Below, piece after piece: positions 37,513 to 49,119 of a stretch of 64,000 nt of DNA. Under the pieces are notes generated by a model. The model did no database searches. It was given only the letters and a program-made list of their open reading frames with translations, and was not told where the DNA came from. Source of the stretch: Streptomyces niveus (GTDB lineage: Bacteria; Actinomycetota; Actinomycetes; Streptomycetales; Streptomycetaceae); NCBI RefSeq assembly GCF_002009175.1, contig NZ_CP018047.1, positions 496,001 to 560,000 of the forward strand, read 5' to 3'. The position numbers were made by a program, and so were the translations under genes. Numbering within the stretch: position 1 is the first letter of the stretch; each line of letters begins with the position of its first letter.

Positions 37513-37957
37513 CGGACACCCGACCGCGGCGGCGAGGGTACTCAGGAGAGTGCGTGTCACGTCGCGGTCCTGACCTGTGGGCGCCCTGCGCGCCCGACCA
37601 CAGGGGTTCTGACACCGGCGGGCCGTCCCGAACCATGACCGCCCGCCGCTCCACCGGAACGAGCGAGCGCGTGGGCTGACCAGCTCCCGGATCCCGCGCT
37701 CCGGCGCGTTCGGCGGCACTTCCGCCGCGCCTGGCGATACTTCGCGCGCCATAAAGGCGCCGTAAGCATATGGCCGAACGTGCGGCCACCTCCCTTCGAG
37801 GTGGGCGCACGGCGACGGCGACATGTGCCCCGGGCCACCAGTTACCCGTACAGGTGAGCTTGGCATTTTCCGCGCATGGCGGCCCCCCCGATGCGGAATG
37901 AACTCAAGGTTGCCCAACGTCACCGTAAGTGACCATCTTCGCTGTGGGAGTGCTGTG
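37513..37957. other. Long intergenic region upstream of the P450-RppA genes
   Basis: About 445 bases without a supported gene. A hairpin with arms CCTGTGG (37574) and CCACAGG (37598), nested in a GC stem, is a likely terminator for the secreted-protein gene. CCACCTC, five bases, GAGGTGG (37786-37804) is a candidate operator or hairpin. The open frame from 37823 upstream of the P450 start is unsupported by a ribosome-binding site or homology. The rest is probably the P450 promoter region; no convincing -35/-10 pair was seen. Confidence 0.55.
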
Positions 37958-39166
37958 ATGACCGGCGTTGACTCAGTACAGACCTGCCCCTTCCGTCACG
38001 ACGACGCCCTGGAACCCGACCCCTTTATGACCCGGATGCGGACCGAGGCACCCGTCGCCCGCGTACGCATGCCGTACGGCGAGGGCGAGTGCTGGCTGGT
38101 GACCCGGTACGAGGACGTGAAGACCGTCACCTCGGACCGCCGCTTCAGCCGAGCCGCCCTGGTCGGGCGGGACTTCCCCCGGATCACCCCGGCGCCCATC
38201 GCGCAGTCCGAGTCGATCAACCTCATGGACCCGCCCGAGCTCAACAGGGTGCGCAGGCTGATCAACAAGGCCTTCACCACCCCACAGGTGGAGGCCCTGC
38301 GCCCGTGGACCCAGCGGGCCGTGGACGAGCTGCTGGACGCCATGGCCGAGAGCGGCCCACCGGTCGACATCGCGGACCACCTCGCGGACCGGCTGCCGCT
38401 GCTGACCATCTGCGAACTGCTGGACGTCCCCGAGGCGGACCGCCCCCAACTGCGGCAGCGCGCCATGGAGATGATGTCCATGAACGCCGCCGACCGGGAC
38501 ACGGCCGTCCAGGCGAAGGCATGGCTGCGGGCCTACTTCTCCGAGCTGACCGCGGAGCGGCGGCGCGCGCCCGGCGAGGACCTGATCAGCGCCCTGGCCA
38601 CCGCGCGCATCGGCGACGAGATGCTCGACAAGGACGAGTTGACCGTGCTGGCCATGCTCCTGGTGATCACCGGCCACGACACCACGACGTACAACATCAG
38701 CAACATCGTCTACACGCTGCTGACCCGGCCCGAGTTGGCCGCCGAGCTGCGTGCCCGGCCCGAACTGCTCCCGCAGGCCCTCGAGGAGCTGCTGCGCCAC
38801 ATCCCCTTCCGCCAGGGCGTCGGCATCCCCCGCGTGGCCCTGGAGGACGTCGACTTCGACGGTGTCGTGATCAAGGCGGGCGACACGGTGCACGTGTCCT
38901 ACCTGACCGCCAACCGCGACGAACTCGCCTACGGACGGCCGGACGAGCTCGACTTCCACCGGGAGGATCCCGCCCCGCACATGACCTTCGGATGGGGCAG
39001 CCACCACTGTCTGGGCGCCCATCTGGCACGCATGGTGCTCCAGGTCTCCATCGGCACACTGCTCACCCGTTTCCCCGACCTTCGTCTGGCCGTACCGGCG
39101 GAGGAGGTGCGGTGGAACACCGTCTCGATCTGGCGATACCCGCTCGCCCTGCCGGTCACCTGGTAA
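37958..39166 (+). CDS. Cytochrome P450 (flaviolin/naphthoquinone-modifying type)
   Basis: A 402-aa soluble bacterial P450. The I helix has ITGHDTT, the K helix EELLRH, and the haem-binding loop FGWGSHHCLGAHLAR with Cys351. The C-terminal LPVTW and VHVSYLTANRDE motifs resemble CYP158/P450mel-type enzymes that couple or oxidise flaviolin from RppA. ATG at 37958 has GGGAG upstream; longer frames are unsupported. It stands 10 bases before rppA on one transcript, so the pair probably makes a dark naphthoquinone (HPQ) pigment or biflaviolin-like dimers. The order P450 then RppA is the reverse of the rppA-P450 order known in some Streptomyces. A ferredoxin gene is not adjacent. Confidence 0.93.
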   Translation: MTGVDSVQTCPFRHDDALEPDPFMTRMRTEAPVARVRMPYGEGECWLVTRYEDVKTVTSDRRFSRAALVGRDFPRITPAPIAQSESINLMDPPELNRVRRLINKAFTTPQVEALRPWTQRAVDELLDAMAESGPPVDIADHLADRLPLLTICELLDVPEADRPQLRQRAMEMMSMNAADRDTAVQAKAWLRAYFSELTAERRRAPGEDLISALATARIGDEMLDKDELTVLAMLLVITGHDTTTYNISNIVYTLLTRPELAAELRARPELLPQALEELLRHIPFRQGVGIPRVALEDVDFDGVVIKAGDTVHVSYLTANRDELAYGRPDELDFHREDPAPHMTFGWGSHHCLGAHLARMVLQVSIGTLLTRFPDLRLAVPAEEVRWNTVSIWRYPLALPVTW

Positions 39167-39176
39167 GGAGCTGATC

Positions 39177-40304
39177 ATGGCAACTCTGTGCAGGCCCGCC
39201 ATCGCCGTACCCGACCACGTCATCACCATGGAACAGACCGTGGAGCTGGCGCGGGCGCTCCATCCCGATCATCCTCAACTCGACCTCGCCGTGCGGCTGA
39301 TCAGCAACACGGGAGTCCGCACCAGACGACTGGTGCGGCCCATCGAGGAGACGCTTCGCCATCCCGGCTTCACCGCCCGAAACGACGCCTACGAGGAGGA
39401 GGCGAAGGCCAGGGTGCCCGAGGTCGTGGAGCGGGCCCTGGCCCACGCCGAACTCACGCCGCGGGACATCGACATGATCGTCTACGTGTCGTGCACGGGC
39501 TTCATGATGCCCTCGATGACCGCGTGGCTCATCAACAACATGGGCTTCGGATCGCACACCCGACAACTCCCGATCGCGCAGCTGGGGTGCGCCGCGGGCG
39601 GTGCGGCCATCAACCGCGCGCACGACTTCTGCTCCGCGTACCCGGAGTCGAACGTGCTGATCGTGGCCTGTGAGTTCTGCTCGCTGTGCTACCAGCCGAC
39701 GGACCTCGCGGTGGGCAATCTGCTCTCCAACGGCCTCTTCGGGGACGCCGTCGCCGCCGCGGTGGTCCGCGGCGAGGGCGGCACCGGCGTACGGCTGGAG
39801 CGCAACGGGTCCCATCTGGTGCCCGACACGGAGGACTGGATCTCCTACGCGGTCCGTGACACCGGCTTCCACTTCATGCTCGACAAGCGCGTGCCCGGCA
39901 CCATGTCCGTACTCGCGCCCGCCATGCGGGAGATGGCGGAGCCGCACGACTGGGACGTCTCCGGACTCGACTTCTACATCGTGCACGCGGGCGGGCCCAG
40001 GATCCTGGACGACCTGTGCCACTACCTCGACGTGCCGGCGGAGATGTTCCGCTACAGCAGGGCGACCCTCACCGAGCGCGGCAACATCGCCAGCGGCGTC
40101 ATCTTCGACGCGCTGGACCGCTTCTTCGAGGACGGCGGCGCCGAGCACGGCGCCCGGGGGGTGATCGCGGGCTTCGGCCCCGGCATCACGGCCGAAATCA
40201 CCCTCGGCACCTGGTCGGTGAGCGGCCAGGAGAGCGGACACATCGAGCGGGAAGTGATCCTGCCGACGCCGGTCCTGATGTCGCAGTCGGACGCGGTCGG
40301 CTGA
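39177..40304 (+). CDS. rppA: 1,3,6,8-tetrahydroxynaphthalene synthase (type III PKS)
   Basis: A 375-aa type III polyketide synthase that condenses five malonyl-CoA units to tetrahydroxynaphthalene, which oxidises to flaviolin. The catalytic triad falls at exactly the usual numbers: Cys138 in QLGCAAGG, His270 in IVHAGGP and Asn303 in ERGNIASG. The RppA-type helper Cys in IVACEFCSLC is present. Strong AAGGAG precedes ATG 39177. It is the second gene of the P450 operon; together they probably make melanin-like pigment for stress or UV protection. The product is not affected by anything visible downstream; a terminator hairpin follows the stop. Confidence 0.97.
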   Translation: MATLCRPAIAVPDHVITMEQTVELARALHPDHPQLDLAVRLISNTGVRTRRLVRPIEETLRHPGFTARNDAYEEEAKARVPEVVERALAHAELTPRDIDMIVYVSCTGFMMPSMTAWLINNMGFGSHTRQLPIAQLGCAAGGAAINRAHDFCSAYPESNVLIVACEFCSLCYQPTDLAVGNLLSNGLFGDAVAAAVVRGEGGTGVRLERNGSHLVPDTEDWISYAVRDTGFHFMLDKRVPGTMSVLAPAMREMAEPHDWDVSGLDFYIVHAGGPRILDDLCHYLDVPAEMFRYSRATLTERGNIASGVIFDALDRFFEDGGAEHGARGVIAGFGPGITAEITLGTWSVSGQESGHIEREVILPTPVLMSQSDAVG

Positions 40305-40379: not shown

Positions 40380-40724
40380 CTACCTCGGGCCGCCGATGCT
40401 GATCCCGGGGCCCTCCGGACGCTCGTCCCTGTCGTGCGGCATCAGCTCGATCTCGATCCGGTGCAGGTTCTCGCTCGCCGCCGTCCCGCCCGCCTCGGCC
40501 GTGATGACGCCGATGTTCAAACCCGCCTTGCCGGTGCCCTCGCGCCGTACCTGCACGGCGAATTCCACATGCACGCGCTCCACCCGGAACTGGAGCCTGC
40601 TCTCCCTGCCGCCCCGCTGTGCCTCCTCCAACTCCTCGCGGATCCGGCCGATCACCTCGGCGAGACCGGCGGTCTCCGCACCGTCGTGCCCACCACGTCC
40701 GCGACGTCCGTCACCCGCGCCCAT
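40380..40724 (-). CDS. Trypco2-like (trypsin-co-occurring) small protein
   Basis: A 114-aa protein. After a Gly/Arg-rich N-terminus (residues 1-14) there is a compact domain: LAEVIGRIREELEEAQ, then LQFRVERVHVEFAVQVRREGTG and GLNIGVITAEAGGTAASENLHRIEIELMP. This matches the shape of the trypsin-co-occurring domain (trypco2) family, which is encoded beside trypsin-like proteases in actinobacterial conflict or signalling operons. ATG at 40724 has GAGAGGG upstream. It diverges, with a 62-base spacer, from the gene for a trypsin-like/kinase fusion, which is the expected partner. It probably binds or regulates that protease. The family assignment rests on reading the motif and context, not on a search. 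Confidence 0.8.
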   Translation of the reverse strand: MGAGDGRRGRGGHDGAETAGLAEVIGRIREELEEAQRGGRESRLQFRVERVHVEFAVQVRREGTGKAGLNIGVITAEAGGTAASENLHRIEIELMPHDRDERPEGPGISIGGPR

Positions 40725-40786
40725 TCCAGCCCTCTCGTTACACAGCGAGGGTCCATTGTCACCCCCCGTGGTTATTGTTGTGCAGT
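40725..40786. promoter_or_regulatory. Divergent promoter region of the trypco2/kinase locus
   Basis: A 62-base spacer between two divergent starts. On the plus strand TTATTGT at 40772-40778 is the best -10 and ends about 8 bases before ATG 40787, with no ribosome-binding site, so a leaderless message is probable. No clear -35 was seen. The trypco2-like gene has an ordinary ribosome-binding site. The two genes are very likely co-regulated. Confidence 0.5.
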
Positions 40787-43700
40787 ATGAGGGAGCTTGA
40801 AGCCACTTCCAACTCCAGCTCGCAGGAAGGCCCTTGGCGCGTCCGGCTGTCCGAGGACGAGACGGGCACCGCTCCGCCGCTCGGCGCCGGGGTGCTGCTG
40901 CCGGGTGGGCTGGTGCTCACCTGCGCCCATGTGGTGCTGGCCAAGCCCCGCCGCAGGACGGGCGGTTCAGGGGGACCGGGCCGACGCGGCGATACGCTCC
41001 GGCCGGTCGAGGCGGTGTACGCGGAGTTCCCCGGTACGCCTTCCCACCCGCCCGTGCGGCTGCGCGCCGAGGTGCTGCCCGAGCATCTCGCGCCACCGAC
41101 CTCGCAGTTCAGCGGCGACATCGCCCTGCTGCGACTGGCCGCCGAGCCGCCGGTGGAGGCCGCCGTACTGCACCGCCGTATCCCCGCACGCGGCACATCG
41201 GTGCACTCGGTCGGCTACACGGACCGGCTGCCCGGCGGTGAGCGCATCGACGCCCGCCTCATGGGGCTCGGCGGCCCGGCGCGCTATCCCGAGTGGGTCC
41301 AACTGGATCCGGCCGGCGGGTCGTACGCGGTACGCCACGGGTACAGCGGCAGCGGTGTGGTCACCGAGTCGGGCAAGGTTCTCGGCATCCTGGTCCACCA
41401 GTTCGGGACCGAGCACTACCCGGTCGCGGTCAGCCACGCCTACATGATCCCGACCGACACCATCCTGCGCTATCTGTCCGTCCTGCGGCACCCGCCGACC
41501 CACCAGTTGGAGGAGTTGCGGGTGACGGGGCCTCCCGCCCTGTCGCCGACCATTCCGCGCGATCCGCCCGGAAGCGGTTCGACCCGCGCTCTCGGACTGC
41601 GCCGCAAGGTGACCCACTGGCTCATCAACTCGGTTCCGGCGACGGGCACGACGACCACGGCCCCGGCCAACGCCCCCGCTCCGGTGTCGGATCCGGTGTC
41701 CGGGGCCGACCCTGCGTCCAACAGGCGCGCGGCCACGGAGCCGGTGGAGGTGATCTTCGCCCGAGACGACCGTCACGACGACATGTCGGCGATCCATGCC
41801 ACGCTCAACCTCGCGGACCGTGAACGCAATCCGCGACCGACGGGCACGGGCGACGCCTCCGAACCGCCCGCCGGCTCGATCGACATCGCCGTGGACGCGA
41901 CGGACCTGACCGCGGGACAGCTCATCGCCCTCACCGCCGAACGCATCGGACTCACCGGACCGGCCGGACCTCCCGGCTCGGAGAGACCCGGCGGACAGGA
42001 CGGGGACGACGGCCCCGAGGACTACGACCGCGCGCTGGCCCGGATCGCCGGGGACAGCCCGCCGATCGCCGCCGCGTTCCTCTCCGTCGACCGGACGGCC
42101 CCGACCGGCGAGGCAGCGATACCCCTCCTCAGGGCGTTACGGCAGAGCGGCCAGACCCGGCTGCTGCTCGTCTTCCGCGACCCGGCGTCCCCGTCGCTGG
42201 AGCGCGTCGTGGACACGCTGCTCGACGACGGCTGGGCCGGGCGCCGCACGACCGCCGTCGCCGGGCGGCTCGACGTGCTCGCCGAGCTGGAGCGACGATT
42301 CCGCAGGCTGGGCGCGTACCCCGGTGTCCGGCGCATCACCGACCCGCCACAGCCGGTCCATCCCCAGCTGACCACGCGGCTGGCCGGCCTGCGGACGGAC
42401 GGCGGGGTCCCGCGCAGGAGCGCCGGTCTCGCCCACGACCTGTTCCTCCTCGACATCGCCGTCGAGGACGCCATCCAGCGGACGGAGTCCGCCGTACGGC
42501 TCCTCGACCGCCCCTACGCACCGGGCGAGTACGTGGTGAGTCCACCCGGTGACGGCCTCACCGATCTGCCGCACATCACCGTCGAGGACCCCGACACATT
42601 CGTCGAGCCCGAGGCGGAGGCGCCGAAGGAGTCGGAGTCCGGCCTCCTGCGGGGCCAGGAGCTGCACCAGCAGTACAGGGTCGTCGGACTGCTCGGCGAA
42701 GGCAGTTTCGGCCAGGTGTACCTCGCCCGCGACCAGATGCTGGACAACCGCCCGGTGGCGCTGAAGGGCGCACGGGACCCCGGTGACGCGACCGACCGGC
42801 AGATCTCCCGCCTCGAACTGATGCGGCTGGTGAGTCTCAACCACCCCTCCATCGTCAAGGTGTTCAACTACGCCCGGCATCCCGGCCGCCCCGACCGGCC
42901 GGAACACCCGGCGAACAACGCCCGGTTCATCGTGATGGAGTTCGCCGACGGCGCGCCCCTCCAGTGGGTCGCCGAGCAGATCGCGCGCAACGAGGCACCG
43001 TTCGACGGCTATCGGGTCCATGAGTTCATCGCCGCCTACGGACTGCGGATTCTGGACGCCCTCAGCTATCTGCACGACGAGGAGGGCTTCGTCTACGGCG
43101 ACCTCTCCCTCACCAATGTCATCCACTGCGGCAGCGGCATCAAGCTCATCGACGTCGCGGGCGTACGGAAGATCGGGCACGCGGGCCCGGTCACCTATCG
43201 GGCGCCCGAACTCGGCACCTCCACCGAAGTGACCGTCGCGGCCGATCTGTTCGCGGTTGGAGCGGTCCTGCGGGAACTCCTCGACCGGGTCCCCGCCCAC
43301 CCCGTCGACCTCGGCACGACCTCACTCCTGCGCGTCCTCAACAGGGCGCAGGCGGCGCGCCCCGAGGACCGGTTCGCCGACGCGCGGGAGATGGCGGTCC
43401 AACTGCACGGCGTGCTGCGGGAGCTGCGCTCGCTGCGGCTCGGCGAGGAGACGTTCGAGCCGTCGCCGCTGTTCTCGGCCGCGCCCACCGCGCTCGACGG
43501 CGAACTCGGCAAGGCGCCGCCGCTCGAACAGTGGCGGCAAGGGGGCAACGACAAACGCCCGCTGACGATAAGGCCGCCGCGGCCCGCCGAGGTGGCCGTG
43601 GGGCTGCCCGTGCCGAGACCGAGCCGTCAGGACCCCAACTGGAAGGAGCTGCAGCGCACGTCGTACGACGATCCCGCCGGTCTGCTCCAGCTCAGCGCCG

Positions 43701-44719
43701 ACTGGCAGCTCTCCCCCGAACTGGCCCTCCTGCGCTGCCGTCTCCATCTGGAGGTCGGCCGCTACCAGCCGGACGGCGCGGGCACGGGCCTGGCGTCCGC
43801 GAAGGCCGAGCTGAGGCGGGCCGAGGCCGCCGTCGGCTCCCTGGCCGAGTACGACTGGCGGCTGCGCTGGCACCGCGGTCTGCTCCAGCTCGCCGCGGAC
43901 GACGTGGATTCGGCGCTTCTGTCCTTCGACGGGGTCTACGCGGCGATCCCCGGCGAGTACGCCCCAAAGCTCGCCCTCGGCTACTGCTACGAGATCCTCG
44001 ACCGGCCGGAGGAGGCGATGGTCTTCTACGGCGCGGTGTGGAAACGCAACCACGCGCTCGGCAGCGCCGCCTTCGGGCTGGCCCGTATCCATCTGGCCGA
44101 CGGCGACAGCGGACCGGCCCTCGCCCGGCTCGAAGCCGTCCCGCCCGACTCGCGGCACCGCACGGCCGCCCGCACCGGCATGGTGCGCATCCACGCGGAT
44201 CTGTCGGCCGAGGGCGGTCCGCCGAGTGTGGACGCGGCGAAGCAGGCGTGCGTGGCGCTCCACCGGCTGGCCCGGTACGAGGGTCTGACGGACCGTCACG
44301 CCCAGGAGCGGCTGCGCACCGACCTGTTGGAGCTGTTGCTGCGGCTGGTCACGACGGCCCCGCAGCCCGACCCGCTGCGCGCGCTGCGTGAGTCGCTGGA
44401 CAAGGAGATCCCGATCCCCCTGACGGAGCACGATCTGCGGGAGCAGTTGGGCGTCGGATACGAGCGGCTCTCCGAGCAGGTGCCGCGCACCGCGCTGCGC
44501 GAGCACACCAGCCTGGAGAGAGCCCTGCTCGACAACGCGTACCGCACCCGCCCGTTCGCCTTCAGCCACAGCCGGGGTGAGCGTCAGGGCAGGCTGCGGG
44601 GCTGGCGGCCCGGCCGGCTGCGGGGCCTGCTGGGCGGCCGGCCGGCGAACCCGGCGCAGGCGCCGGACGCCGGGGGCCGCGGCGAAGACCGCTGGAACGC
44701 CTTCACCGGGGAGCGGTGA
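40787..44719 (+). CDS. Trypsin-like protease / PknG-like kinase / TPR fusion protein
   Basis: A 1310-aa soluble multidomain protein. The N-terminal trypsin-like domain (about 15-215) has His48 in TCAHVV, Asp111 in SGDIALLRL and Ser187 in GYSGSGVV, a complete triad. A Pro/Ala/Thr linker follows (about 255-310), then an uncharacterised alpha/beta region (about 320-560). A protein kinase domain runs from about 630 to 890: GEGSFGQVYLARD, Lys660 in VALKG, Asp772 and Asn777 in YGDLSLTN, Asp789 in LIDVAG (DFG is replaced) and YRAPE. A TPR-like helical region (about 985-1260) ends it. Kinase plus TPR resembles PknG, a soluble Ser/Thr kinase. No signal peptide. The stop overlaps the next start. Cleavage by its own protease is possible. 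Confidence 0.92.
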   Translation: MRELEATSNSSSQEGPWRVRLSEDETGTAPPLGAGVLLPGGLVLTCAHVVLAKPRRRTGGSGGPGRRGDTLRPVEAVYAEFPGTPSHPPVRLRAEVLPEHLAPPTSQFSGDIALLRLAAEPPVEAAVLHRRIPARGTSVHSVGYTDRLPGGERIDARLMGLGGPARYPEWVQLDPAGGSYAVRHGYSGSGVVTESGKVLGILVHQFGTEHYPVAVSHAYMIPTDTILRYLSVLRHPPTHQLEELRVTGPPALSPTIPRDPPGSGSTRALGLRRKVTHWLINSVPATGTTTTAPANAPAPVSDPVSGADPASNRRAATEPVEVIFARDDRHDDMSAIHATLNLADRERNPRPTGTGDASEPPAGSIDIAVDATDLTAGQLIALTAERIGLTGPAGPPGSERPGGQDGDDGPEDYDRALARIAGDSPPIAAAFLSVDRTAPTGEAAIPLLRALRQSGQTRLLLVFRDPASPSLERVVDTLLDDGWAGRRTTAVAGRLDVLAELERRFRRLGAYPGVRRITDPPQPVHPQLTTRLAGLRTDGGVPRRSAGLAHDLFLLDIAVEDAIQRTESAVRLLDRPYAPGEYVVSPPGDGLTDLPHITVEDPDTFVEPEAEAPKESESGLLRGQELHQQYRVVGLLGEGSFGQVYLARDQMLDNRPVALKGARDPGDATDRQISRLELMRLVSLNHPSIVKVFNYARHPGRPDRPEHPANNARFIVMEFADGAPLQWVAEQIARNEAPFDGYRVHEFIAAYGLRILDALSYLHDEEGFVYGDLSLTNVIHCGSGIKLIDVAGVRKIGHAGPVTYRAPELGTSTEVTVAADLFAVGAVLRELLDRVPAHPVDLGTTSLLRVLNRAQAARPEDRFADAREMAVQLHGVLRELRSLRLGEETFEPSPLFSAAPTALDGELGKAPPLEQWRQGGNDKRPLTIRPPRPAEVAVGLPVPRPSRQDPNWKELQRTSYDDPAGLLQLSADWQLSPELALLRCRLHLEVGRYQPDGAGTGLASAKAELRRAEAAVGSLAEYDWRLRWHRGLLQLAADDVDSALLSFDGVYAAIPGEYAPKLALGYCYEILDRPEEAMVFYGAVWKRNHALGSAAFGLARIHLADGDSGPALARLEAVPPDSRHRTAARTGMVRIHADLSAEGGPPSVDAAKQACVALHRLARYEGLTDRHAQERLRTDLLELLLRLVTTAPQPDPLRALRESLDKEIPIPLTEHDLREQLGVGYERLSEQVPRTALREHTSLERALLDNAYRTRPFAFSHSRGERQGRLRGWRPGRLRGLLGGRPANPAQAPDAGGRGEDRWNAFTGER

Positions 44720-45855
44720 TGGGCCGCCGCCTGGCCGTACGTTCACGGCTCAGGGCCGCCCTGACGGCCGGCCGGTCGGCCGGGGCCGCCGTATGGCGGT
44801 CGGTGTGGCTGCCGATGTGGCGCAGGTCCTCGGGCCGTACGCCCACGGGCCGGCGGCGGCACACGGCTCAGTTCCTGTTCAGCCGCATGCTGCTGCTCCC
44901 GGCGCTGGCCCTGACCGTCCTGGCGCTGGCCGGGACGGCGTATCTGGACCTCGACGGCCGTACGGAGCAGCTGCGTGAGCGCTACGCCCCCGCGATGGTC
45001 GAACTGGCCCATGCCAGGACGTCGTTGGAGCTGGCGCACCGGGAGGCGACGCTGCGGCTCCGCGGAAACGACGGGGAGCCTCTGATCCAGACCGATCTCG
45101 TCGGGCTCGGGGAGAAGTACCCGTCGCTGCTGACCGAAGCGGCGCAGAGCCTCAACAACGCGGCCCAGACCAAGGCGCTGCGCGCCCAGCAGGAGCAGGA
45201 GGTCCGGGTGGTGTCCGGGCTGGTGGTGGCCTACGGCGACTGGATCGGCTGGGCCGACAGCCACCACGACAGCGAGGTGTTGCGCACGGCGGGGATGGAC
45301 TACGCCACGAGTCTGCTGGGCACTTCGGCCAAGTCGGACGATCCCACGGCCGTCCTCAACCGCATCAAGGCCCTCGAAGAGGAGTTGAGAGCGGACGCGT
45401 CGGAGCTGTCGGGCTGGACCGAGCTCTCCACCGTGACGGCGTGGGGCGCCCTGCTGGTGGTGCTGGTCTTCGTGCTCGCCGTCGTCGGCACGCTCGACTT
45501 CGTCCTGGCGCAGCTACGGGTGCGCAGCCCGCTGCTGACGCTGTACGCGCTGCCGGTCCTGCTGGCACTCGGCGTACTGGTGCTCGGGGCGGCCGGTCAG
45601 CAGGACGCGCAGCGGAAGGTGTCGAAGGCGGGCGCCGAGCTGTCCGGGGTGAGCGCGACGGAACAGGCTGCCGATACCCGGATCGAGGTGGTGGACGAGG
45701 AATTGGCCGTCGGCCTGCGCGGTACGCACCCGGGCGCATGGACTCTGGCCTCCGAACTCGCCCTGGCCGTCGGGGCGGTGGGCGCGGTGGCGTCGGGATT
45801 CACGCTGTTCCACTACGGCCGCAGGCACCTGCGGATCCTTTGGAGGACGCCATGA
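44719..45855 (+). CDS. Four-helix membrane sensor-like protein (GlnX-like architecture)
   Basis: A 378-aa inner-membrane protein. After a 50-residue Arg-rich cytoplasmic tail there are four membrane helices at about 57-76, 240-262, 272-292 and 342-365. The extracytoplasmic loop between helices 1 and 2 (77-239) is helical, with heptad-like segments, as in four-helix-bundle sensor domains. The second loop (293-341) is also outside. The C-terminus is short and basic. No catalytic domain is present, so it must signal through a partner. The layout and place next to a PknG-like kinase resemble GlnX of mycobacteria. ATG at 44719 shares one base with the kinase stop; GTG at 44716 would overlap by four. 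Sequence-level homology to GlnX was not tested. Confidence 0.82.
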   Translation: MGRRLAVRSRLRAALTAGRSAGAAVWRSVWLPMWRRSSGRTPTGRRRHTAQFLFSRMLLLPALALTVLALAGTAYLDLDGRTEQLRERYAPAMVELAHARTSLELAHREATLRLRGNDGEPLIQTDLVGLGEKYPSLLTEAAQSLNNAAQTKALRAQQEQEVRVVSGLVVAYGDWIGWADSHHDSEVLRTAGMDYATSLLGTSAKSDDPTAVLNRIKALEEELRADASELSGWTELSTVTAWGALLVVLVFVLAVVGTLDFVLAQLRVRSPLLTLYALPVLLALGVLVLGAAGQQDAQRKVSKAGAELSGVSATEQAADTRIEVVDEELAVGLRGTHPGAWTLASELALAVGAVGAVASGFTLFHYGRRHLRILWRTP

Positions 45856-47147
45856 GGGCTCCGTTCCGACTCGTGCGCCCGGTGCTGGCGCTCGCCCTGC
45901 TCGCCGGGGCCGCTGTCGTGTCGGCGGGCTGCGTGGCCGAGGAGAGGCCGACGGTGGTGGTCCTCGGTCCGTGGACGGGCGGCGAGGCGAAGCCGTTCGA
46001 GAAGATGCTCGAGGAAATGGGCAGGCAGAAGGGCCGGAACTATGTGTACGAGGGAACGCGCTCGCTGAGAGAGACGCTGGTCGCGCAGTTGCGGACGGAG
46101 TCGCCGCCCGACGTGGCGATCCTCAACGGACCCGGCGAGTTGGCCCAGTACGCGCGCGACGGGGACGCCCAGCCGCTGCCTCCGGACGTGGCGGGCCGGG
46201 CCATAGAGCCCTGGGCCCCGCGTATCACCGTCCCGGACAAGCACGGGAACACCGAGGAGAAGGCGTACTGGGCCCCGGTGCGGGTGGATCTCAAGTCCGT
46301 CGTATGGAGCAGGCCGGGCGAGAAGGAGGCGGGCGCCGAGGACGCCCGGTGGTGTCTGGGTATGGCGTCGGGCGCGACGTCGGGGTGGCCGGGCACGGAC
46401 TGGATCGAGGACCTGCTGCTGCAACGGGAGGGCCCCGATGTGTACGAGCGGTGGGCCAGTGGCGCCCTGAAGTGGAATGACGACCGGGTGAAACGGGCGT
46501 GGCAGGACTGGGGCGCCGTGCTCGCCACCGACGTGGAGAACGCCAGGGTGTCGATCACCAGACCGTTCGAGAGCCTGGGCGGCGGCAAGTTCGGGCTGCT
46601 GAACAGGGACGACTGCACGCGCGAGCATCAGGGTGCTTTCGTCCGCCGCCACTACGGTCCGGATGTGATGCCGGCCCCGACTTCCGACTTCGTCCAGGGG
46701 CTGCCCGCCGGTCAGAACGTGTTCGAGGTCTCGGGCGATATGGCGGCGGTGTTCAAACCGAGCGACGCCGCGTGGGAGTTGGTGCTCGAACTCACCTCGC
46801 GGGATGCCCAGGCCGAATGGGGCAAGGCGGCGAAAGCGGGAGAGCAGCCGTTCTTCCCGACCGGTACGGGGGGAGCGAAGGGTGCGACCCCGGCGTCGAG
46901 GGAAGTACTGCGGATGCTCAATGGTGCCGAGCGGATCTGTCTCGACGCGTCCGATGCCATGCCGTCGACGCTGCGGGGCGCCTTCCAGCGGGCGGTACTG
47001 GAATTTCTGGAGAACCCGCGGGACGAGGCTGTACTCGACGGTCTGCTCAACCAACTGGAGGCGGAGCGACGACTCCAGGAGGGGGCCGGGGCGTTCGTCC
47101 TGGACGATCTGTGCGACGTGCCACCCGGGAGGTCGTCGGCCGGGTGA
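45852..47147 (+). CDS. Extracellular solute-binding lipoprotein (family 1-like), no permease partner
   Basis: A 431-aa exported binding protein. The signal peptide ends in VVSAGC, a lipobox with lipid-anchor Cys at about residue 27. The mature protein has the fold of family 1 (sugar-type) binding proteins: VVVLGPWTGGEAKPFEKMLEEMG, YVYEGTRSLRETLVAQLRTESPPDVAILNGPGELAQYARDG, then AYWAPVRVDLKSVVWSRP and a C-terminal lobe. No ABC permease or ATPase is adjacent; instead it follows the membrane sensor gene in an ATGA junction with TGGAGGA upstream. It is therefore likely a receptor for signalling, like GlnH next to PknG, rather than a transporter subunit. The ligand is unknown; a sugar is more likely than an amino acid. 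Confidence 0.88.
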   Translation: MRAPFRLVRPVLALALLAGAAVVSAGCVAEERPTVVVLGPWTGGEAKPFEKMLEEMGRQKGRNYVYEGTRSLRETLVAQLRTESPPDVAILNGPGELAQYARDGDAQPLPPDVAGRAIEPWAPRITVPDKHGNTEEKAYWAPVRVDLKSVVWSRPGEKEAGAEDARWCLGMASGATSGWPGTDWIEDLLLQREGPDVYERWASGALKWNDDRVKRAWQDWGAVLATDVENARVSITRPFESLGGGKFGLLNRDDCTREHQGAFVRRHYGPDVMPAPTSDFVQGLPAGQNVFEVSGDMAAVFKPSDAAWELVLELTSRDAQAEWGKAAKAGEQPFFPTGTGGAKGATPASREVLRMLNGAERICLDASDAMPSTLRGAFQRAVLEFLENPRDEAVLDGLLNQLEAERRLQEGAGAFVLDDLCDVPPGRSSAG

Positions 47148-47214: not shown

Positions 47215-47240
47215 GACGACCGGGGACGGAGCCGGTCGTC
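47215..47240. terminator. Terminator hairpin after the kinase-sensor operon
   Basis: GACGACCGG (47215-47223) and CCGGTCGTC (47232-47240) form a 9-bp stem with an 8-base loop. It lies 67 bases after the lipoprotein stop and overlaps the last codons of the convergent beta-helix gene, so it could serve both. Confidence 0.65.
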
Positions 47241-48195
47241 AGGGTGTGACGGCGATGTTCGTCAGGCCGCGTCCGCCGGTGACCGTGTTGTTCGAGTGCA
47301 CCGTGGTCCGGCAACTGGCGGTATCCGCCGTGACGTTGATGGCGAGCTGCTTGTCGCCGGTGGCGCCGGTGAGGTCGGACCTGTTGCCGCGGAAGACGGT
47401 GCCGCAGCCCCAGCCCGACTGCTGGGTGTGGGTCTCGAAGCCGTTGTTGGTGGTGTTCTTCCCGGTGTTGTTCTCGACGAGCGTGTTGTTGCCCTTCACA
47501 TCGACCCAGGAGTCGTCGAAGTTGGCGCCGGTCAGCCCCCGGCCGTCGAAGGTGTTCCCGATGATCTTCGCTCCGGTGGTGCCCTCCTTGATGTCGATGG
47601 CCTCGCCACCGACGTCGGGGCCGATCGTGTTGCCGATGATCTGCGTGTTGTCGCTCTTGTCGGAGGTGCCGCCGGCCGAGCCGACGTACACGCCTTCGCC
47701 CATCCCCCGGCCGTCGTTTCCGGTGTCGTAGATCCGGGAGTTCCTGATGACTCCGTCGCGGCTGCTCTTACGGAAGTGGACGCCTTCCATGTCCAGGTCG
47801 TGCACGACGACGGAGTCGATGACGACGCCGTCGGCGGCGTCCGCCATGATCCCCTTCTGGGCGCCGGTGAGGGTGATGCCCTTGACGGTCCAGTACGAGG
47901 CGCCGTTGAGGTGCAGCACGTACCCGCCGCCCGCGTTGAGCACGGCCTTCTCCGAACCGGCGAGCGTGATGCGGGAGTTGGCGGTGCCGGCGACCAGCGC
48001 CTTGAAGTTTCCGGTGTAGTTGCCGTCCGCGAGCTGGATCGTGTCGCCGGGACGGGCGGCGGTGAGCGCCGCCTTCAGTTCGGCGGCGGTCTTCACGTTG
48101 ATGACCGCCGCGTGGGCCGGTGCGGCGGCCACGGAGAGCACACCGGCCGTCGTGGCAACGGCGAGGAGAGTGGGGAGCAGCCTTCGGGTACGCAT
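47239..48195 (-). CDS. Secreted right-handed beta-helix protein (polysaccharide-lyase-like)
   Basis: A 318-aa exported protein; signal peptide residues 1-30 (AAAPAHA-AVINV). AELKAALTAARPGDTIQLADGNYTGNF at the start of the mature part is typical of the PL6/chondroitinase B and pectate-lyase-like beta-helix folds. Regular repeats follow (VVIDSVVVHDLDMEGVHF, GVIRNSRIYDTGND, NTQIIGNTIGPD, AKIIGNTFDGRG), each a helix rung. No calcium- or catalytic-residue set is complete enough to name a substrate. Two cysteines (WGCGTV, ASCRTTV) near the C-terminus may form a disulphide. It is convergent with the lipoprotein gene and faces the SGNH hydrolase divergently. Confidence 0.88.
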   Translation of the reverse strand: MRTRRLLPTLLAVATTAGVLSVAAAPAHAAVINVKTAAELKAALTAARPGDTIQLADGNYTGNFKALVAGTANSRITLAGSEKAVLNAGGGYVLHLNGASYWTVKGITLTGAQKGIMADAADGVVIDSVVVHDLDMEGVHFRKSSRDGVIRNSRIYDTGNDGRGMGEGVYVGSAGGTSDKSDNTQIIGNTIGPDVGGEAIDIKEGTTGAKIIGNTFDGRGLTGANFDDSWVDVKGNNTLVENNTGKNTTNNGFETHTQQSGWGCGTVFRGNRSDLTGATGDKQLAINVTADTASCRTTVHSNNTVTGGRGLTNIAVTP

Positions 48196-48388
48196 CGCAA
48201 GCGCCTTCCTGCGGAGAGTTGTGGGGTCTCATATGCGAACAGGGGACGAGCTTGTGAACACTGGAGCTGACTCGTCACCGTAGGGACACCAGTGAACCGC
48301 GTCAAGGTCCGTACCAATAGCGGGACTTCCGGCGCCTCGACAGCCCTCCCGTCCGCGACACGCCGACATTTCGGAAATCCCGACTCCT

Positions 48389-48423
48389 TGCAACGCACGC
48401 ACGATCGATCGTACTTTTATGCC
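48389..48423 (+). promoter_or_regulatory. Leaderless promoter with palindromic operator for SGNH gene
   Basis: TTGCAA (48389-48394) and TACTTT (48412-48417) are separated by 17 bases, and the likely start point coincides with the ATG at 48424. No ribosome-binding site precedes it, so the message is probably leaderless. ACGATCGATCGT (48401-48412), a perfect palindrome, lies in the spacer and would block the promoter when bound. Confidence 0.65.
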
Positions 48424-49119
48424 ATGACGACAGCGGCGAACACCCTCACCGAAGAGACCGACCCCCTCTGCCTCTCACCGGCGCGCGCCGCGGGGCTCCT
48501 CACCGGGGCCCCGTGGCGACGTTTCGCGGTGGCCGGCGACAGCCTGGCCGCCGGGATCGGGGACCCGAGCCCCGGCTACGCGAGCCTGCCGTGGGGCAGC
48601 CGGGTCGCCGACGCCCTGCGCCGTGTCCGTCCGGAGTTGGCGTATCTGAACACCGGCACGATCGGAGCCACCACATCCGACACGCTGGACCAACAGATGG
48701 ACGAGATCGTCGCGTTCGCCCCGGACCTGCTCCATATCTCCTGCGGAGCCAACGACTTGTTCCGGCGGCAGCCCGACTTCGAGGTCATCGAGCGCACGGC
48801 ACGGCGGGTGTTCGAGCGGGCGGCGGGGACCGGGGCGCGGCTCACGACGTTCACCCTCGGCAGGGCCTTCGACGTGCCGGCGTTCCCGGACTTCCCCCAG
48901 CGGGTGCGGACGCTCAACGCCGTCACCGAGGCGCTGGCCGTGGAGCACGACGTGGTCCTCGTCGACATGTGGGACCACCCGCTCAACTCGCGGCCGGATC
49001 TGCTGAGCGCCGACCGTATCCACTTCTCGACGTCCGGTCAGGCGGTGATGGCGTCCGAGGTGGTCAAGGCACTCGCGCGGGCGATCGACGCACCGGCGGC
49101 CACCACGACCTGGTGGTGA
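48424..49119 (+). CDS. SGNH/GDSL-family esterase
   Basis: A 231-aa cytoplasmic-looking hydrolase. Block I AVAGDSLAAGIG has the catalytic Ser40; block III GANDLFR has the Gly/Asn oxyanion residues; block V DRIHFSTSG has Asp197 and His200. These are the marks of GDSL-family lipases/esterases with broad substrates. ATG at 48424 starts the conserved protein; an upstream frame from 48292 lacks a promoter and is not needed. It stands alone on the plus strand between two minus genes. The substrate is unknown. Confidence 0.92.
   Translation: MTTAANTLTEETDPLCLSPARAAGLLTGAPWRRFAVAGDSLAAGIGDPSPGYASLPWGSRVADALRRVRPELAYLNTGTIGATTSDTLDQQMDEIVAFAPDLLHISCGANDLFRRQPDFEVIERTARRVFERAAGTGARLTTFTLGRAFDVPAFPDFPQRVRTLNAVTEALAVEHDVVLVDMWDHPLNSRPDLLSADRIHFSTSGQAVMASEVVKALARAIDAPAATTTWW

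Follow-up and report, generated by a model that had tools for sequence, protein, structure and literature searches.

The closest described system to the locus reported here is the PknG-GlnX-GlnH relay of Corynebacterium glutamicum and mycobacteria, in which the linker between the kinase and TPR domains was proposed to couple GlnX to PknG (PMC8546545), and modelling placed a periplasmic binding protein close to an acidic finger in the second outer domain of GlnX (PMC9769921). The locus lies at 40380-47147 of a 64,000-nucleotide stretch of Streptomyces niveus DNA (the window; 0.50-0.56 Mb of the single-contig 8.0-Mb genome), and encodes a trypsin-like protease fused to a PknG-type kinase. Like the described relay, it combines in one operon a PknG-type kinase with TPR domain, a GlnX-homologous protein with four transmembrane (TM) helices and a lipoprotein-type substrate-binding protein (SBP). 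Unlike the relay, it carries a trypsin and a degenerate STAND-type domain (pseudo-STAND) in front of the kinase, has Trypco2 added and no rubredoxin (also absent from corynebacterial PknG; PMC8546545), and contains an SBP of the SBP_bac_1 rather than the SBP_bac_3 family and a shrunken second outer GlnX domain.

A second described counterpart is the group of Trypco2-linked trypsin conflict systems (Kaur et al. 2020, PMC7159879), in which a trypsin-like protease likewise has a neighbouring Trypco2, whereas the window has a kinase-GlnX-SBP relay in place of MoxR-vWA-VMAP. That paper describes Trypco2 and its trypsins, and the word PknG does not occur in its main text. Trypco2 was elsewhere called an adapter domain (PMC10907252), other kinases linked to SBPs were noted in Streptomyces (PMC6069109), and the words kinase, TPR and STAND are absent from the main text of a serine-protease survey (PMC2605481). 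In the literature searched (open-licence PMC papers), no description of a trypsin-PknG fusion was found. For many bacterial Ser/Thr kinases the signals are not known, and an SBP linked to a kinase in one operon bears on that question.

We read the locus as a remodelled paralogue of the PknG-GlnX-GlnH sensor relay, in which an outside ligand is relayed via the GlnX-like protein to a protease-carrying kinase, and give this reading a probability of about 60%. The arrangement suggests that a molecule outside the cell controls both a protease and a kinase inside it. The architecture and ancestry of the module are well supported; its predicted domains, active-site residues, homologies, gene order and relation to split loci come from the sequence itself.

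Layout and conservation of the locus

The locus contains one divergent gene and three genes on the same strand (open reading frames, ORFs, with sequence check), and all four were found where the original prediction had placed them:

40380..40724, minus strand, Trypco2 protein of 114 aa (PF19631, 2.1e-23), divergent from the kinase gene
40725..40786, no strand, 62-bp gap between the divergent genes (sequence)
40787..44719, plus strand, 1310-aa trypsin / pseudo-STAND / PknG-type kinase / TPR fusion (Pfam, PDB match, 68 relatives)
44716..45855, plus strand, 379-aa GlnX-homologous four-TM protein (profile-profile comparison, hydropathy)
45852..47147, plus strand, 431-aa SBP_bac_1 binding protein with lipobox-type signal sequence (PF01547, 8.9e-7)

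Adjacent plus-strand genes overlap by 4 bp each, and the 62-bp gap presumably carries the promoters of both divergent genes. The closest protein relatives of the locus are from Streptomyces.

Using the 1310-aa protein alone as query against contigs (one genome per species), 18 loci were identified, of which 13 matched along the whole protein, all from Streptomyces, and 5 matched in the kinase domain only. The kinase, TM and SBP genes are consecutive in 12 of the 13 Streptomyces loci (the 13th, L009, stops at a contig edge), and Trypco2 is divergent upstream in 12 of 13 (L006 is without a Trypco2 hit). All four genes keep the proposed order in 11 of 13, and conservation over these 13 loci places the order beyond chance. 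A protein search, like the other homologue searches scoring the 8000 (or 7999) candidates that share most words, gave 69 hits, namely 68 fusion relatives and P0197 (kinase only). All fusion relatives with an organism name are Streptomyces; P0182, P0183 and P0194 have no precomputed trypsin domain and P0196 has no PknG_TPR.

Could the genes be chance neighbours, the SBP serving an ABC transporter and the TM protein being unrelated? SBP_bac_1 proteins usually serve transporters, which favors this explanation; among the four window neighbours scanned with Pfam there is no permease (no permease search was made around the loci). However, it has to face the conserved order and short overlaps in fused loci, the GlnX homology described below, and the correlated divergences of kinase, TM protein and SBP (Spearman 0.90-0.91 over 903-946 pairs, with shared descent uncontrolled). 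We consider it highly improbable, and chance adjacency was rejected on gene order and correlated divergence.

Classes of related loci

Loci were sorted by script from second PknG_TPR copies over the cut-off plus 14 further canonical copies, with gene starts being rule-based guesses; the under-cut-off matches G036:C294, G128:C30 and G140:C36 and the short single match of G050 were left out. Class A (canonical) has 15 loci (L003, L087-L100) with a GlnX similar to that of L003. Class B (split) has 26 loci with trypsin, PknG-type kinase, vWA and SBP, defined as the module with vWA; the TM gene is separated from the SBP in 23 of them (unseparated in L061, L085 and L086). Class C has 7 loci (L053, L069-L072, L074, L075) with kinase, TM and SBP only; searches for trypsin, Trypco2 and vWA were negative there. 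Class D (fused) has 15 loci, listed by hand plus length: the window, the 13 from the contig search and L073. Split loci share with the window a homologous trypsin-plus-middle domain, kinase, TM protein and SBP, while they differ in having separate trypsin and kinase genes and a vWA, of which no homologue was found in fused loci.

PknG_TPR is over the cut-off in 113 of 119 genomes of the order, and a locus of class B, C or D is present in at least 29 of the 119 (22 with B, 6 with C, 2 with D; one has B and C). Four of the 26 class B loci and one of the 7 class C loci come from separately searched relatives outside this 119-genome set, and an extra split locus, L131, in another family stands outside the counts.

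The 1310-aa fusion protein

The following features were assigned in the fusion protein, all on the plus strand:

40883..41389, plus strand, trypsin-like protease domain, residues 33-201 (H48, D111, S187; Trypsin_2 PF13365, 4.2e-11)
41738..42181, plus strand, degenerate STAND-type P-loop domain without Walker A, about residues 318-465 (directly aligned about 340-461; hhalign)
42548..42604, plus strand, segment like the PknG N-terminal motif GLxxLPxVxxxDP, residues 588-606 (conservation in 69 rows)
42674..43306, plus strand, PknG-type kinase domain, residues 630-840 (Pkinase PF00069, 1.3e-19)
43397..43531, plus strand, kinase-TPR linker, residues about 871-915 (conservation)
43580..44554, plus strand, PknG-type TPR domain, residues 932-1256 (PknG_TPR PF16918, 7.2e-38, 130.7 bits against a cut-off of 27)

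Conservation was counted over 69 rows, the 1310-aa protein (P0001) plus 68 homologues. The protease triad is nearly invariant (H48 in 66 rows, with 2 gaps and 1 Arg; D111 in 68; S187 in 67), and the kinase residues K660, D772, N777 and D789 are kept in 69 of 69; the residues had been named correctly. For the kinase/TPR part, the best sequence match among solved structures is PknG (PDB 2pzi, E 1.6e-50), and its profile aligns with canonical PknG over most of the length with a probability of 100 (hhalign; probabilities here and below are single-pair values). Together with the Pfam matches, these results bear out the claim of a PknG-type kinase with TPR domain. Pfam gave no rubredoxin (PF16919) match on the 1310-aa protein, while the L003 PknG of the same genome has one. 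Block 871-900 of the kinase-TPR linker shows the highest conservation among 30-residue blocks (mean 0.88), and the linker is taken to correspond to the "linker C-T" of PMC8546545. In NCBIfam, only generic kinase equivalogs far under their cut-offs were found for P0001, and nothing for the other three proteins.

The middle region between trypsin and kinase, which the original prediction had left unnoticed, is related to STAND-type P-loop domains and is degenerate. Compared by hhalign with a profile of 6 STAND-type proteins from a profile search, the fused form reaches 94.0 (E 1.4e-7, 103 columns; reversed control 0.2) and the split form 98.7 (E 2.7e-16; reversed control 0.3). A clear Walker A is present in some of the STAND-type proteins recovered, and the pattern GxxxxGK[ST] occurs in 0 of 69 fused rows. 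When 33 proteins were scanned with the looser pattern G....G[KR][ST], P0193 was the sole fused match. An active STAND NTPase was rejected because no fused row has a Walker A. The relation was recovered by the profile search and hhalign, while Pfam gave no match on this domain and a PDB sequence search with its alignment gave nothing significant.

The GlnX-homologous TM protein

The prediction of a GlnX-like membrane protein was confirmed by profile comparison (hhalign; proteins longer than 460 aa excluded, 13 of 14 fused proteins used). The split TM profile matches canonical GlnX with a probability of 98.8 (E 1.2e-16), and the fused, window-type profile matches the split one at 99.9 and canonical GlnX directly at 77.6 (E 1.9e-5). 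Class C TM proteins reach 82.4 against canonical GlnX and all module TM proteins pooled reach 98.5, while reversed-profile controls lie at 1.2-9.1. Pfam found nothing over its cut-off on the TM protein, and a PDB sequence search with the TM alignment found nothing significant. Many relatives of the TM protein carry the precomputed Pfam family PF28326.

TM segments were called by hydropathy only. They are centred at about 62, 255, 282 and 350 in the 379-aa protein, and four were found in 14 of 14 fused-locus TM proteins, with a first outer loop of about 172 aa (median). Fused and split TM proteins thus retain four helices and the first outer domain. The second outer loop has a median of about 54 aa in fused loci, 63 in class C (from 6 of 7) and 35 in class B, compared with about 164 for canonical GlnX (10 of 15 proteins, those in which four segments were called). 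By a criterion of about 150 aa, the second outer GlnX domain is mostly lost in the fused-locus TM protein. Its loss and the change of SBP class mean that receptor and binding protein changed together.

The binding protein

The 431-aa protein matches SBP_bac_1 (PF01547) with 29.6 bits (cut-off 26, E 8.9e-7). The SBP alignment consists of 37 sequences, out of the window protein (P0003) and 120 listed homologues, and the lipobox cysteine C27 is present in 37 of 37. In split loci the lipobox test performed poorly (12 of 23). Beside the lipobox cysteine, all 37 sequences have four more invariant cysteines, possibly forming two disulfides, and a W-P-G-x-D-W stretch.

The original prediction had called this protein GlnH-like, and here it failed. 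GlnH of the same genome belongs to SBP_bac_3 (PF00497), and the two profiles show no relation (hhalign probability 1.7), on which the GlnH identity was rejected. The SBP profile gave weak, non-significant matches (E 0.016-0.29) to a chitin-oligosaccharide-binding protein and AcbH, and a PDB sequence search with the SBP alignment found nothing significant.

With this SBP class, the module might be a nutrient-sensing paralogue, in which SBP and kinase would sense a carbon source and respond by phosphorylating a metabolic FHA protein, while trypsin and pseudo-STAND serve mainly as a scaffold replacing the lost rubredoxin and helical-adaptor parts. The class includes sugar binders (the window protein's own matches to them being the non-significant ones above), and loci without trypsin persist. 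However, a triad without use would be expected to decay, whereas nearly all fused proteins and all 23 assessable split ones retain it, and we regard this explanation as rather doubtful.

Canonical operon and probable origin of the fusion

The second PknG of the genome lies in a canonical operon (L003, C1:5406000-5420000) with the order glnX, glnH (SBP_bac_3), a gene for a 442-aa helical protein, pknG with rubredoxin, PP2C, VWA_3 and FHA. Its kinase, TPR and GlnX are homologous to those of the window operon, which differs in having no PP2C, vWA, FHA or separate helical-protein gene. Since the same genome keeps this glnX-glnH-pknG operon, the window module is a remodelled paralogue, an addition and not a replacement. 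The proposed PknG-GlnX-GlnH-like relay stands for kinase/TPR, GlnX, Trypco2 and gene order, falls for GlnH, and is refined to a paralogue of the canonical operon.

Homologues of the seven L003 genes occur in the same order in 15 canonical loci (Pfam names were taken from L003 only), and this Streptomyces-type pknG operon is larger than the mycobacterial three-gene one. L140 and L142 are arranged differently. In L142 (848-12067), a single PknG set is surrounded, with genes on both strands, by two glnX-like and two glnH-like genes.

The split vWA matches the canonical vWA at 100, and the C-terminal part of the split trypsin protein matches the canonical helical protein at 98.6 (reversed 1.6), so the split pre-kinase gene encodes trypsin, STAND-like domain and a relative of part of the helical protein. 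This part seems to be missing from the shortest split trypsins (L076, L077, L079, L085 and L086; 438-447 aa) and is mostly gone in the fusion, where the middle region matches the helical protein at 1.1.

In a kinase tree of 63 rows (quick method, midpoint root; the tool flagged long branches for L057, L061, L052, L080 and L085/L086), the fused kinases form one clade (100), joined (100) to a group of class C, L052 and L080 (99), and class B kinases are scattered over the tree. In split loci the trypsin gene lies next to the kinase gene, overlapping it by 4 bp in 11 of 26, and such adjacent, separate genes are the most likely source of the fusion. A rubredoxin match over the cut-off was found in 6 of 10 split kinases scanned; outside the L052/L080 branch, rubredoxin occurs in 7 of 8 sampled split kinases (L076 of these below the cut-off), and no match was found in the window protein, L052, L080 or L069. 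From this pattern, rubredoxin was probably lost first, followed by trypsin-kinase fusion and vWA loss. Class C would have lost trypsin, Trypco2 and vWA, and represents a natural loss series.

At the junction before the kinase, L591, L594 and P595 are kept in 69 of 69 rows and T592 in 66. A motif near GLxxLPxVxxxDP sits before the rubredoxin domain in canonical PknG. The loose regular expression L..[LVI]P finds a match in 7 of 7 sampled fused proteins, in 13 of 15 canonical and 17 of 26 split ones, and in only 1 of 7 from class C. The expression misses the nearest split loci, L052 and L080, where only similar strings occur (LVLPEV, LLPEI). The motif is suggestive of a fusion junction at about residues 580-606. 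A conserved junction segment, together with separate trypsin and kinase chains in relatives, would also fit self-processing, in which the trypsin would cleave its own chain close to the junction and free the kinase, the fusion being a precursor. However, the segment resembles the PknG N-terminal motif, which also occurs in unfused proteins, so cleavage is not required to explain it, and we think self-processing unlikely.

Trypco2 and a possible defence role

The divergent 114-aa protein, predicted as trypco2-like, is a true PF19631 match and the sole one in the 8.0-Mb genome. With a search model made from BLAST-found Trypco2s, from which distant members may escape, Trypco2 was found in 14 of 15 fused, 11 of 26 split and 0 of 7 trypsin-less loci. 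Among the 15 split loci without a match, 3 are cut at or inside the trypsin gene and 12 have an assessable upstream region. Trypco2 goes with the trypsin, yet it does not stand beside every intact trypsin of the family. The module offers a concrete setting for learning its role.

Trypco2 was defined as a neighbour of the trypsins in predicted conflict systems (PMC7159879), and the locus might itself be a conflict (defence) system, in which the SBP or the TM protein senses invaders or damage to the envelope, the kinase acts as switch, and trypsin with Trypco2 serves as the effector arm, freeing or destroying targets in line with proposals for other trypsin/Trypco systems. Further points in its favor are the STAND-related middle domain and the patchy presence in the order, and crude gene calls put the fused loci into at least two chromosomal settings. 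One set of flanks is common to L007, L008, L011, L015, L016 and L073, another to the window, L004, L005, L012 and L014, and L016 also has one upstream family in common with the window group. In PADLOC, which was used with no cut-offs, the best matches are to defence-kinase models, for example PD-T4-6 (4.8e-23) and mad6 (1.3e-18), and fall on the kinase domain only, with a weak RT-Protease_XI match on the trypsin (3.3e-4). However, no MoxR, vWA, VMAP, TIR or nuclease is present among the four Pfam-scanned window neighbours, to which the search was confined, and the sensor, an SBP, is not one of the known invader-sensing domains. On plasmids, neither the fusion nor the SBP had a match, and 4 records gave kinase/TPR matches only. 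Altogether, a defence role appears somewhat improbable.

The plasmid-listed records with PknG-type kinase/TPR stretches come from Nonomuraea, Nocardia (2) and Tsukamurella, and one of them, at 11.9 Mb, is chromosome-sized.

Proposed working of the relay

For the sensor relay as we read it, the first steps are drawn by analogy to PknG. A ligand, perhaps sugar-like by the SBP class, would bind the surface lipoprotein, and the loaded lipoprotein would act on the outer helical domain of the GlnX-like protein. The signal would then pass through the four TM helices to the TPR domain and the conserved kinase-TPR linker of the cytoplasmic fusion, and the kinase would be switched on. Purely by domain logic, the trypsin, held via the dead STAND-type domain and probably Trypco2, would be freed or brought into place for cutting a substrate, a single receptor event thereby leading to both phosphorylation and proteolysis. 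The ligand, the substrates, the coupling of kinase and protease and the ligand control of the protease are what we infer here.

The divergences of kinase, TM protein and SBP track each other and all three genes persist in the 7 trypsin-less loci, which fits a core relay; survival without trypsin in class C is the strongest hint of it. All 23 split trypsins left uncut by the ends of the fetched stretch have an intact triad, and triad conservation is the strongest hint that the protease is in use.

Several points weigh against this reading. The relay of mycobacteria and corynebacteria is itself partly a model (PMC6069109, PMC9769921). With another SBP family and the second GlnX domain mostly gone, the known docking cannot simply carry over, and the loss of trypsin in class C means that protease and relay are separable. 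Inside the fused class the correlation of divergences is lower (0.68-0.84), and for the trypsin it is 0.65-0.76, again with shared descent uncontrolled. Trypco2 goes undetected in 15 of 26 split loci (12 assessable) despite intact trypsins, and a strict GarA/OdhI-motif pattern for the usual substrate gave 0 matches in this genome.

A stronger version of the relay is a ligand-gated transmembrane protease switch, in which the extracellular SBP, via the GlnX-type receptor, turns on the cytoplasmic trypsin sharing a chain with its controlling kinase, and Trypco2 is its inhibitor or first substrate. We put this forward tentatively; if true, bacteria would here have assembled receptor-controlled proteolysis from a nutrient-sensing kinase and conflict-system parts. 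The comparisons indicate that the PknG-GlnX relay is a reusable cassette that allows exchange of the SBP class, loss of an outer receptor domain and attachment of a protease. Comparing the split, fused and trypsin-less forms amounts to a natural experiment on the contributions of protease, Trypco2 and vWA. Since the orphan SBP lies in a conserved operon with the kinase, the question of its ligand is directly testable.

Genes around the module

By Pfam, cytochrome P450 and type III polyketide synthase genes lie upstream of the module (37823-40304), and a right-handed beta-helix protein (minus strand) and a GDSL lipase (plus strand) are encoded downstream (47239-49119). The P450 ORF has a relative upstream of the fused loci L004, L005, L012 and L014.

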